Part shown: positions 47,725 to 51,933 of the stretch, in pieces
Layout: every line of letters starts with the position of its first letter
Numbering within the stretch: position 1 is the stretch's first letter
Origin: Natrononativus amylolyticus
GTDB lineage: Archaea; Halobacteriota; Halobacteria; Halobacteriales; Natrialbaceae
Length of the DNA stretch: 64,000 bases
Assembly (NCBI RefSeq): GCF_024362525.1
Contig: NZ_CP101458.1
Location: 248,001-312,000, forward strand
Direction: 5' to 3'
Made by a program: the position numbers and the translations under genes
The notes under the pieces: model-generated
Database searches by the model: none
What the model was told of the DNA's origin: nothing
What the model saw: the letters and a program-made list of their open reading frames with translations, nothing else

Positions 47725-48228
47725 GTGATCCACTGGCTCCGCGGGCTGTGGCGGTACTATCTGGCGTACACGAAGCGCCCGCTCCACACGGCGACGGCGG
47801 CCGCGTTCGCCATCTTCGCCCTGCTGGTGTTCGTCGATCCGCTGTTCGCGGCACTGGCGGTCGGCTCCTACGTCCTGCCACCCGTCGTGTTGTACGTCCT
47901 CGAAGGTGAACCGATGCCCGAACCCGCATCCCGAAGCCACTCGATACTCACCGAAGACCCCGAAAGTGCCACGACGCAGGCACGCCGCTGGGATCACCCG
48001 GAAGAGACGGATCGCTCGAGAGTGGACACCGCCAATGGCGACACCGATTCCGATAGCGACGACGATGACACCGATTCAGACAGCGACGACGGTGACACCG
48101 ATTCAGACAGCGATGACGGTGACACCGATTCAGACAGCGACGACGGTGACACCGATTCAGACAGCGATGACGGTGACACGGACACGGATCGCGTCGGCAC
48201 TGATACCGATTCGGATCGAAGCGGCTGA
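47725..48228 (+). CDS. Membrane protein with Asp/Ser repeat tail
   Basis: 167 residues, GTG start at 47725. Residues about 22–58 are a helical hairpin, AAAFAIFALLVFVDPLFAALAVGSYVLPPVVLYVLEG. The tail is very acidic: residues 105–149 are five copies of a nine-residue GDTDSDSDD-like unit (27-base DNA repeat, 48037–48171), ending in TDTDRVGTDTDSDRSG. The tail may be a calcium or cation-binding spacer. Repeat number could vary between strains. I do not know its function. Confidence 0.75.
   Translation: MIHWLRGLWRYYLAYTKRPLHTATAAAFAIFALLVFVDPLFAALAVGSYVLPPVVLYVLEGEPMPEPASRSHSILTEDPESATTQARRWDHPEETDRSRVDTANGDTDSDSDDDDTDSDSDDGDTDSDSDDGDTDSDSDDGDTDSDSDDGDTDTDRVGTDTDSDRSG
48037..48171 (+). repeat. 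Five tandem 27-base units (DTDSDSDD-coding), with 54-base periodicity
   Basis: Units 2–5 alternate gcgacgac and gcgatgac near their ends, so the array is really pairs of 27-base units (54 bases) and probably arose by a doubling event. Unit 1 is diverged. Confidence 0.85.
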
Positions 48229-48689
48229 CTCGAGAGTCCCGAAACCTGGTGGCCGGGAGTGTGCGCGGCGAAACTCGCCGCGCACGCGACTCGGGGGAGG
48301 GTAGGCGGTCCTGCCTCGATTCACCGCGAGCGAACAACGTGAGCGAGCGGGCCGGCGGCCGACGTGGAGAGCGCGGCGCTACGCGCCGCGGTTGGCGAAC
48401 GGCGAAGCCGTGAGCCGGGTCGCCACGCGACGGAACTGAGGCCGGCGTGCTTTTGGTCCAGCCTGAGCGGAAGCGGAGCTTCCGCGAGGTCGTCGGCGCG
48501 AAGTCGTTCGAAACGGCTCCGCCGTTTCGTGATGCCAAAAATCTTCGATTTTGAGCACGCTGACTGCAAGCGATTTCTTCGGAATCGCCCAGTCCAAAAG
48601 AGCAGAGCTCTTTTGAAGATTTTGCCGAGGGACGCTGCGCTGACGGCTGCGCCGCACAGCGCAGCAGACTGCAGAGTAAAAGGTGGGTT
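48229..48689. other. Noncoding region dominated by a hairpin array
   Basis: 461 bases between the DSD-repeat gene and the acyl-CoA dehydrogenase stop, with no gene seen. From 48467 to 48665 it is nearly all short perfect stem-loops (listed separately). Upstream are further GC-rich palindromes around 48267–48415, such as gcgcggcgaaactcgccgcgc. Confidence 0.6.
48467..48665 (+). repeat. Array of six tandem stem-loops with mostly three-base loops
   Basis: Stems: 48467–48485 (8 bp, loop gga); 48509–48529 (9 bp, loop tcc); 48538–48552 (6 bp, loop ttc); 48570–48588 (6 bp plus a G–T pair, loop cttc-like); 48595–48615 (9 bp, loop aga); 48634–48665 (9 bp outer stem, inner small hairpin). All in 200 bases, mostly perfect. 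The gatgccaaaaa stretch before stem 3 also occurs at 46368–46378 next to another hairpin. Function unknown: transcript end, structured RNA or repeat-derived DNA. Confidence 0.75.
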
Positions 48690-49841
48690 CTAGAACCCTT
48701 TGCCGAGCAGCTCTCGAGCGATGATGTTCTTCTGGATCTCGGTCGTTCCCTCGTAGATCTGGGTGATCTTGGCGTCGCGGTAGAGCCGTTCGACGGGGAA
48801 GTCGTTGACGTAGCCCGCGCCGCCGTGGATTTGGACGGCCTCGTCGGCGACGTCGACGGCAATCCTCGAGGCGTACTCTTTGGCCATCGACGCGAGCGTG
48901 GTGATGTCGTTGCCCTCGTCGACGTTCCAGGAGGCCTTGTAGGTCAGGTTGCGGGCGGCCTCGGTCTTCGTGTGCATATCCGCCAGCTTGTGCTGGATCG
49001 CCTGGAACTCCGAGATCGGCTTCCCGAACTGTTCGCGGTCCTGGGCGTACTCGAGGGCCGCCTCGCAGGCGCCCTTCGCGATGCCGACGCCCTGGGCCGC
49101 AACGGCGGTTCGGGTCTGGTCGAAGAAGTGCATCTGCTGCATGAACGCGGCGTCCTGGGTGCCGACGAGGTTCTCCTCGGGGACGCGAACGTCGTCGAAG
49201 ATGAGTTCGGCGGTGTCGGAGGCTCGGATACCCAGCTTGCCGGTGATCTTCTCGGCGCTGAAGCCGTCGCGGTCGGACTCGACGATGATCTGGGAGAAGC
49301 CGTTGTAGCGGCCGGGGGCGTCCTCGTTGGTCTTACAGAGCACGACGAAGAAGTCCCCGACGGTGCCGTTGGTGATCCACATCTTGGTCCCGTTGACCAC
49401 CCACTCGTCGCCGTCTTTCTCGGCGCTCGTCGAGACCGACGAGACGTCCGAACCGGTGTCGGGTTCCGAGATCGCCGCACCCGAGATCTTCTCGCCGAGG
49501 GCGACCGGCTCTAAGAACTCCTCTTTCTGCTCTTCGGTACCGAACTCCATGATCGCCTCGCAGCCGAACGAAGAGGCGACGATCGAGAGGGCAATTCCTG
49601 GATCGACCGCAAAGAGTTCCTCGACGATGATCGAGGTGTCGAGGATCGAGTAACCCGCACCGCCGTACTCGATCGGGATGTACGCACCGGTGAGCCCCAT
49701 CTCGGCGGCCTTGTCGACGATCTCGTGGGGGTACTTCTCCTCGACGTCGTACTCGGAGGCGACGGGGCGAATCTCGTTGTCCGCGAAGCGGCGAACCTCC
49801 TCGCGGATCTGTTGTTGCTCGTCGGAGAGTCCGAAATCCAT
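48690..49841 (-). CDS. Acyl-CoA dehydrogenase
   Basis: 383 residues from ATG 49841 ([20 protein letters not shown]). The longer frame to 50006 lacks coding character. FAD enzyme that removes two hydrogens from acyl-CoA in beta-oxidation. Seen: [48 protein letters not shown]-type block as [15 protein letters not shown], and [19 protein letters not shown], which carries the catalytic Glu near the C-terminus. Divergent from the fused hydroxyacyl-CoA dehydrogenase gene, so the two probably act together. Confidence 0.94.
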
Positions 49842-49956
49842 ACCGGTCGATTCTGTCCTGAACGATAAAGAGCTTTGTAACCCGAAGTAAACCGAGACGG
49901 AGTTTCCTTCTCGACGGAGGGAAACGTTCAAACGGGTCGCAGTTGGATAGCCGTCC

Positions 49957-51933
49957 ATGGAACTCGAGGATATCAACACCGTCGCAGTTCTGGGAGCGGG
50001 CAACATGGGCCACGGTATCGCCGAGGTCGCAGCCCTCGCGGGCTACGACGTGACGATGCGGGACATCAAAGAGGAGTTCGTCCAGGACGGCTACGACCAG
50101 ATCGAGTGGTCACTCGGCAAGCTCGCCGAGAACGACCAGATCACAGAGGAGAAAGCCGACGACACCTTAGCGCGGATCACGCCGCTGGTCGACATGGAGG
50201 AGGCCGTCGGCGACGCCGACTTCGTCATCGAGGCCGTCCCGGAGAAGATGGAGATCAAAAAGGACGTCTACGGCGAACTCGAGGAGCACGCCCCCGACCG
50301 GGCGATCTTCGCGACGAACACCTCGAGCCTCTCGATCACGGAACTCTCCGAGGTCACCGAACGGCCCGAGAGGTTCTGCGGGATGCACTTTTTCAACCCG
50401 CCGATCCGGATGCCGCTGGTCGAGGTCATCACCGGCGAGCACACCGACGAGGGGGTCCTCGAGCTCACCGAGGCGCTCGCCGACGACTTCGGCAAGTCCC
50501 CCGTTCGCGTCCACCGCGACGCGCCCGGTTTCATCGTGAACCGGGTGCTCGTCCCGCTGATGAACGAGGCGTCCTGGCTCGTCTCGAACGACGAGGCCAC
50601 GATCGCGGAGGTCGACTCGACCACGAAGTTCGACATGGGGCTCCCGATGGGCGCGTTCGAACTCGGCGACCAGGTCGGCAACGACGTCAGCCTCCACGTC
50701 CTCGAGTACCTCCACGAGGTGCTCGGCGAGGCCTACGAGCCGGCGCCGCTGCTCGTCAAAAAGGTCGAGAACGAGGAGCTGGGCAAGAAGACCGGGAAGG
50801 GATTCTACGACTACGAGGACGGCGACGGCGCGGAGGTCCCCAGCGACGAGGGCTCGGAGTTCGTGAAGGAACGGCTGCTCGCCGCGACCGCCAACGAGGC
50901 CGCCAAGCTGATCGGCGGCGACGTCGCCCCGCCCGAATCGATCGACGAGGCGGTGATGCTCGGCGGCGGCTGGCCCGAGGGGCCGGTCGCGCTGGCGGAC
51001 GATCACGGCCTCGAGTCACTGCTCGAGGTCCTGGAGGAGGCCCACGAGGAGACGGGCCACGCTCGCTACGAGCCCGACGAGTACCTGCGCGAGCGCGCCG
51101 AGGCGGGCGGGTTCTACGACGCCGATAGCGACAATGGCGACGGCGAGCGCTTCGATTACGACGTGATTTCCGTCGAAATCGACGACAGCGTGGGCCACCT
51201 CGAGATCGACCGCGCCCACCGGATGAACACGATCACGACGGACATGATCGAGGAGGTAGACGACGCGATCGACAAGCTCGTCGAGGACGACGAGGTTCGC
51301 GCGCTACTCGTCACCGGTGCGGGCGACCGCGCCTTCTCGGCCGGCTTCGACGCCTCGACGGCCTCCGTCGCCAACGGCCTCCAGGCCGCCGAGATGTCCC
51401 GCCTGGGCCAGCGCGTCTTCGGGCGCCTCGAGGAGATTCCGATGCCCGTCCTCGCCGCCATCGACGGCTACTGTCTCGGCGGCGGCATGGAGTTCGCCAC
51501 CTGCGCCGACATGCGGATCTCGAGCCGTCGCTCGAAGTTCGGCCAGCCCGAACACAACCTCGGCCTCTTACCTGGGTGGGGCGGCACCCAGCGCCTCTCC
51601 CGGATCGTCGGCGAGGGCCGCGCCAAGGAGATCATCTTCACCGCGCGAAACGACTACGACCCCGAGACGATGGCCGACTACGGCTTCGTCAACGAGGTCG
51701 TCGACAACGACGAGTTCGAAGACCGCGCCTGGGAACTCGCCCGCGACCTCGCCGCCGGCCCACCGATCGCCCAGGAGTTCACCAAGAAGACGATGCTCGC
51801 CGGGCGGACGGATCTCGAGGCGGGGCTCGAACTCGAGGCCTCCTCCTTCGGCCACCTGTTCACCACGGACGACCTCTGGGAGGGACTCGCCGCCTTCCAG
51901 CAGGATCGCGAGCCGGAGTTCGAAGGGAAGTAG
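49957..51933 (+). CDS. 3-hydroxyacyl-CoA dehydrogenase / enoyl-CoA hydratase fusion
   Basis: 658 residues. N-terminal 3-hydroxyacyl-CoA dehydrogenase: NAD fold [45 protein letters not shown] with the catalytic His, and [19 protein letters not shown]-terminal enoyl-CoA hydratase (from about 410): [14 protein letters not shown] oxyanion loop and [22 protein letters not shown], followed by [17 protein letters not shown] with Glu and Gly landmarks. This dehydrogenase-first order is the archaeal/bacterial alternative to FadB. Both steps of beta-oxidation between the acyl-CoA dehydrogenase and thiolase are covered; no thiolase is in the window. Confidence 0.95.

Follow-up and report, generated by a model that had tools for sequence, protein, structure and literature searches.

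What are the six short stem-loops that lie end to end between 48467 and 48665 of the window (the whole stretch of Natrononativus amylolyticus DNA analysed, 64,000 nucleotides long), and how do stems of differing sequence stay paired? All six, which a sequence-only reading had described, are present within this interval, and the four three-base loops that it named (gga, tcc, ttc and aga) are correct.

A longer element behind an acyl-CoA dehydrogenase gene

On the + strand, the stem-loops of the array occupy 48467–48485 (8 bp, loop GGA), 48509–48529 (9 bp, loop TCC), 48538–48552 (6 bp, loop TTC), 48570–48588 (8 bp including one T·G wobble, loop TTC), 48595–48615 (9 bp, loop AGA), and 48634–48665 (9 bp plus an inner CGGC-TGC-GCCG). 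The stems had been called perfect, which is slightly generous for the third, in which pairing extends to 48533–48557 only with two mismatches, and for the fourth, with its wobble pair. The array is the 3′ half of a longer + strand element at ∼48251–48683, so the interval first marked contains the array and is too narrow for the element, which begins near 48251 and has at least four more hairpins.

The element runs from a GGCCGGGAG linker to an AAAAGG end, and its anchors follow the same canonical order as those of other copies. Module 1 (48251–48305) consists of GGCCGGGAG, a variable stem-loop at 48261–48285 (11 bp, loop AAC) and a CGGGGGAGGGTAGG linker. Module 2 (48322–48366), delimited by alignment and consensus structure, is a CACCGCGAGCGA...GAGCGGGCC helix with tandem G·A mismatches. 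It is followed by three stem-loops (48372–48431), at 48372–48390 (8 bp, loop TAC), 48399–48411 (5 bp, loop GAA) and 48419–48431 (5 bp, loop CAC), and by a linker at 48437–48460 containing GTGCTTTTGGTCCA, the conserved anchor A5. Within the six-stem-loop array, the hairpins at 48509–48529 and 48538–48552 form an extra multibranch, whose place is taken by a simple hairpin in other copies. The terminal module (48620–48683) comprises TTTTGCCGAGGGAC, a stem-loop and AGACTGCAGAGTAAAAGG, and is also found solo elsewhere (C1:2230031). The element ends 6 nt away from the TAG stop codon (48690–48692) of a gene on the − strand (48690–50006) that Pfam matches identify as an acyl-CoA dehydrogenase.

Chance and base composition can be rejected as the source of the hairpins. 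One 450-bp stretch holds five triloop hairpins whose stems pair perfectly over 7 bp or more, compared with a maximum of three in 60 order-2 Markov shuffles of the window, and the RNAfold z-scores are −5.1 on either strand, with no shuffle equally stable. Triloop stems of at least 8 bp are in just ∼1.3-fold excess across 1.2 Mb of the own genome, and the hairpin signal is therefore that of the repeat family described below. Tandem duplication was also rejected, as the sequence-only reading had rightly anticipated: the sole strong tandem array nearby is a 27-bp coding repeat in the neighboring upstream gene (47725–48228), where it encodes an acidic tail (DSDSDDGDT; window 48040–48212). Comparable acidic tails are found ahead of the element, or of the same gene, in L234, L239, L246, L247, L251 and L252.

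A dispersed repeat family with conserved fold

The element matches ten places in its own genome by BLASTN, itself and nine others, and when these copies are set side by side the linkers are common and in the same order while the stems between them differ. Within the family Natrialbaceae, 96 of 101 sampled genomes have a BLASTN match. A covariance model built from the middle module (R1) matches 108 of 146 Halobacteriales genomes from ten families, with up to 22 matches per genome, and none of 69 sampled genomes outside Halobacteriales. In the own genome it gives ten matches at E ≤ 0.01, including one of E 0.006, which is weak, and one that covers a short fragment within a gene. All ten are on C1 and none on the other 1.0 Mb (C2 and C3), a distribution that is not significant at n = 10. 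Copy number was taken from the covariance model because approximate counting of terminal modules over 1.2 Mb gave 9, below the 26 in a reversed-sequence control. A contig scan with too loose a pattern returned mostly chance matches in unrelated bacteria. Short matches occur in four haloarchaeal plasmid records. The named ones are plasmids of Halostagnicola larsenii, Haloterrigena sp. KLK7 and Natronosalvus rutilus, which have no annotation beneath the match. Phage sequences gave no match to the element.

Full copies measure 200–458 nt. One copy (L012, G000:C1:131200–132000) is flanked by a ∼64-bp direct duplication of the 3′ end of the preceding gene. At L014/L403 (G000:C1:1025213–1025986), the family-like hairpins CGCGGCCC-AAC-GGGCCGCG and GCGAACGGC-GAA-GCCGTGAGC lie in frame in a nucleoside phosphorylase-like gene; this insertion of ∼16 extra codons is found in the own genome and G019, and most of 26 family members are without it.

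The fold is what the copies share. Stems differ almost freely among copies with pairing kept, and the linkers are common. In module 1 (22 copies), 95.7% of cells are paired and both-sided changes occur in 11 of 16 pairs; in the long form of the terminal module (12 copies), the corresponding values are 90.6% and 17 of 30 pairs. In both modules the observed covariation score is reached by none of 500 shuffles, and covariation is lost when partners are slid by one to three columns. Two of the outcomes on which the sequence-only reading had staked its proposal of a structured repeat, recurrence elsewhere and compensatory changes in relatives, were thus found. Tandem G·A separators recur between stems (CCGC-GA-GC...GC-GA-GCGG). 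Among 140 hairpins from 40 element sequences (pooled copies, hence non-independent), 106 have three-base loops, with GNA or the complementary TNC in 75 of these 106, and a C-G pair closes 108 of the 140. GNA triloops closed by C-G are very stable DNA mini-hairpins.

Together, these data provide good support for placing the element in a repeat family of Halobacteriales that is dispersed, mosaic and conserved in fold. As far as the tools used reach, the family is apparently new as a family: Rfam gave no covariance-model match to the element up to E = 1, and among open-licence PMC papers we found no description of it and no match to its literal linker sequences.

Such covariation, together with the conserved linkers, would also be expected of a functional structured RNA, free or within a 3′-UTR, transcribed from the + strand and with stems selected through ordinary compensatory mutations. 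A strand bias points the same way. With paired positions picked by Watson-Crick pairs only, G·T exceeds A·C by 50 to 20 on the + strand (p = 4e-4; the cells are non-independent, and one set gives 21 of the 50), an excess that weakly favors folding of the + strand, that is, the strand opposite the abutting gene. When distinct helices alone are counted, however, the numbers are 18 to 9 (p = 0.12), against a genome background of 141 to 124. Furthermore, the strand favored is not that of the abutting gene but its opposite, copies are missing or decayed at many orthologous sites, Rfam offers no match, and the exact loop inversions and two-base arm corrections described below are footprints left in DNA. 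We therefore regard a structured RNA as a doubtful explanation for the family.

Placement directly behind stop codons

Copies usually lie directly behind the stop codon of a gene. Read in the sense of the abutting gene, the junction is typically T-AA-CGA-A[AC]TTTTGC or TAG-AACCGA-ACTTTTGC. The stops adjoining elements, in copies from several genomes, are TAA in 40 cases, TAG in 18 and TGA in 4, compared with 78, 127 and 287, respectively, for long-ORF stops in 1.2 Mb of the own genome (crude ORF filter). A composition-filtered gene model kept the abutting gene in 41 of 57 copies, in 38 of these 41 at a distance of ≤7 nt. On their other flank the 57 copies vary more: 23 face a converging stop and 11 the start of a gene, 11 show nothing clear there, and 12 are too short to judge. 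What stays constant is therefore the relation to the gene with the adjoining stop codon, at the present locus the acyl-CoA dehydrogenase.

The location behind stop codons, and the T4 tracts on both strands, raise the question of whether the element terminates transcription in both directions, or acts as an insulator, where genes end. Passages of a study on Haloferax volcanii, also a haloarchaeon, report termination at T stretches and sometimes at hairpins at gene ends (PMC7237163). The hairpins in those passages, however, are single ones upstream of the 3′ end, and no family with shared linkers is described there (PMC7237163). In our element the T4 run comes before the hairpin on either strand, what lies on the other flank is the start of a gene in 11 copies, against 23 with a converging stop, and a short T tract would not require a mosaic structure of 200–450 nt. 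We consider a terminator or insulator rather unlikely as the main explanation.

The same precise abutment to TAA or TAG could instead result from transposition, with the element being non-autonomous and mobilized in trans by an enzyme, a transposase or recombinase, that would recognize the fold and be directed to stop codons. The dispersed copies, the inverted repeat formed by the terminal module, the family-like fragment in frame within a gene and the single copy with a ∼64-bp flanking direct duplication would all fit. Against this, the junctions examined show no constant short target-site duplication, an enzyme would find no constant stem to read, and Y1_Tnp, the only transposase surveyed, is absent from G006, G105 and G107 despite 9, 12 and 3 model matches, respectively. 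A Y1 transposase was accordingly rejected as the driver, as its presence does not track copies, and we hold transposition in trans to be improbable overall. The comparison with MITEs is similarly mixed: the terminal module is an inverted repeat, whereas a constant duplication is lacking at the junctions examined, one copy having the ∼64-bp direct duplication.

Among known systems, bacterial REP/BIME sequences are among the closest, being dispersed, repeated, palindromic, mostly extragenic and arranged in mosaic arrays, as is the family here. A share of Escherichia coli REPs lie ≤15 nt from a stop codon and are reported, in a passage that cites earlier work, to stall ribosomes (PMC12306157). 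REPs are, however, 20–40 bp long with a conserved stem, whereas full copies of the present family span 200–458 nt and have freely varying stems, composite folds and conserved linkers. The Y1 (RAYT-type) transposase PF01797 associated with REP/BIME was not found in G006, G105 and G107, all of which carry copies. Because the family lacks both the short conserved stem and the association with a Y1 transposase, we do not class the element as REP/BIME. Integron attC sites, folded sites directly behind a stop codon, can be likened to it by analogy alone. By analogy with what has been proposed for bacterial REP, and with less confidence, copies may persist behind stops because genes tolerate, or benefit from, a folded boundary at their end.

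Turnover of copies and proposed renewal of stems

Orthologous sites differ in what they carry. Behind the acyl-CoA dehydrogenase gene, the element is present in some genera and absent in others. Two further sites, behind genes that from their sequence resemble IF-1A and an amidophosphoribosyltransferase, were compared in all species of one genus (29 genomes), and at both of them stems, modules and presence all vary. The sequence-only reading had suggested a structured mobile repeat family; a dispersed structured repeat is well supported by the many copies, the order-wide recurrence, the covariation and these differences in presence and absence at orthologous sites, with mobility itself a putative trait. 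At the amidophosphoribosyltransferase-like site, the whole terminal module is inverted in L381; in L383 it is absent, with the arms joined as CGAAATTTCG. In two sister genomes with the element behind acyl-CoA dehydrogenase (L230 in G047 and L233 in G025), the terminal stem is GGGCTCACGA...TCGTGAGCCC and the inner parts, CAGGTTCTA and CAGAACCTG, are approximately reverse complements of each other.

The changes within hairpins are of a particular kind. Over ∼190 nt, L358 and L361, two sister copies from this genus, differ by TGG→CCA, TTC→GAA and two point changes, and the two triplet changes are exact loop inversions. Among hairpins with the same inner arm, the loops are reverse complements in 16 of 174 loop pairs (9.2%; pooled copies), compared with a mean of 5.7% and a maximum of 8.3% under 500 permutations. 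Reverse complements account for 5 of 15 changed loop pairs at the IF-1A-like site (pairs non-independent). As to the arms, the module 2 helix has the usual GA·GA mismatch in 67 copies, and perfect complements in its place in others (GA/TC in six, TC/GA in two and AA/TT in one); a one-sided change, AA·GA, is seen in two copies. Arm mismatches have thus been replaced two bases at once, in either direction, by perfect complements.

Exact loop inversions and two-way arm homogenization are footprints of template switching, a templated process at the level of DNA, and selection, which the sequence-only reading had offered as one implication of the array's order, is therefore not needed for perfect stems that differ among copies. 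From these footprints, template switching between inverted repeats is probably behind the stem changes. During replication or repair, a single strand would fold into hairpins, and DNA synthesis would switch template inside them, re-copying one arm from the other and flipping loops. Stems could in this way stay perfect while their sequence drifts, with no separately selected compensatory step. In coding repeats of yeast, arm homogenization and spacer inversion have been attributed to template switching (PMC8604942). The process has also been put forward as the origin of hairpins in rRNA and microRNA genes and as the means by which these are maintained (PMC8794818). Those cases resemble ours in arm homogenization and exact short-spacer inversion, even in TTC/GAA and TCC/GGA flips (PMC8604942, PMC8794818), but are single and scattered, whereas here a repeat family is involved and many hairpins per copy appear affected.

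Three observations count against template switching. The excess of G·T over A·C on one strand weakly suggests selection on a folded strand; conservation of the linkers extends over several families within the order, for which a purely mutational process gives no explanation; and the second orthologous site has no loop inversions, with 0 of 11 comparable hairpin pairs inverted and reverse complements in 0 of 9 changed loop pairs. Selection may still be acting on linkers, strand and position. We nevertheless favor, with some confidence, a dispersed mosaic palindromic element of Halobacteriales whose stems are renewed by template switching inside hairpins. A version in which a mobile element is recognized through its fold and linkers, is placed precisely at stops and renews its stems by hairpin-templated DNA synthesis would also be conceivable, though we think it unlikely.

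Covariation is the usual proof of selected structure. The family seems to offer a natural example of perfect, covarying stems being generated largely by a mutational process, with many copies comparable within one genus. Furthermore, our data suggest that an archaeal order carries a REP-like layer behind many of its genes, unannotated by the resources used, and they make a concrete question testable, namely how a repeat ends up a few nucleotides from stop codons.
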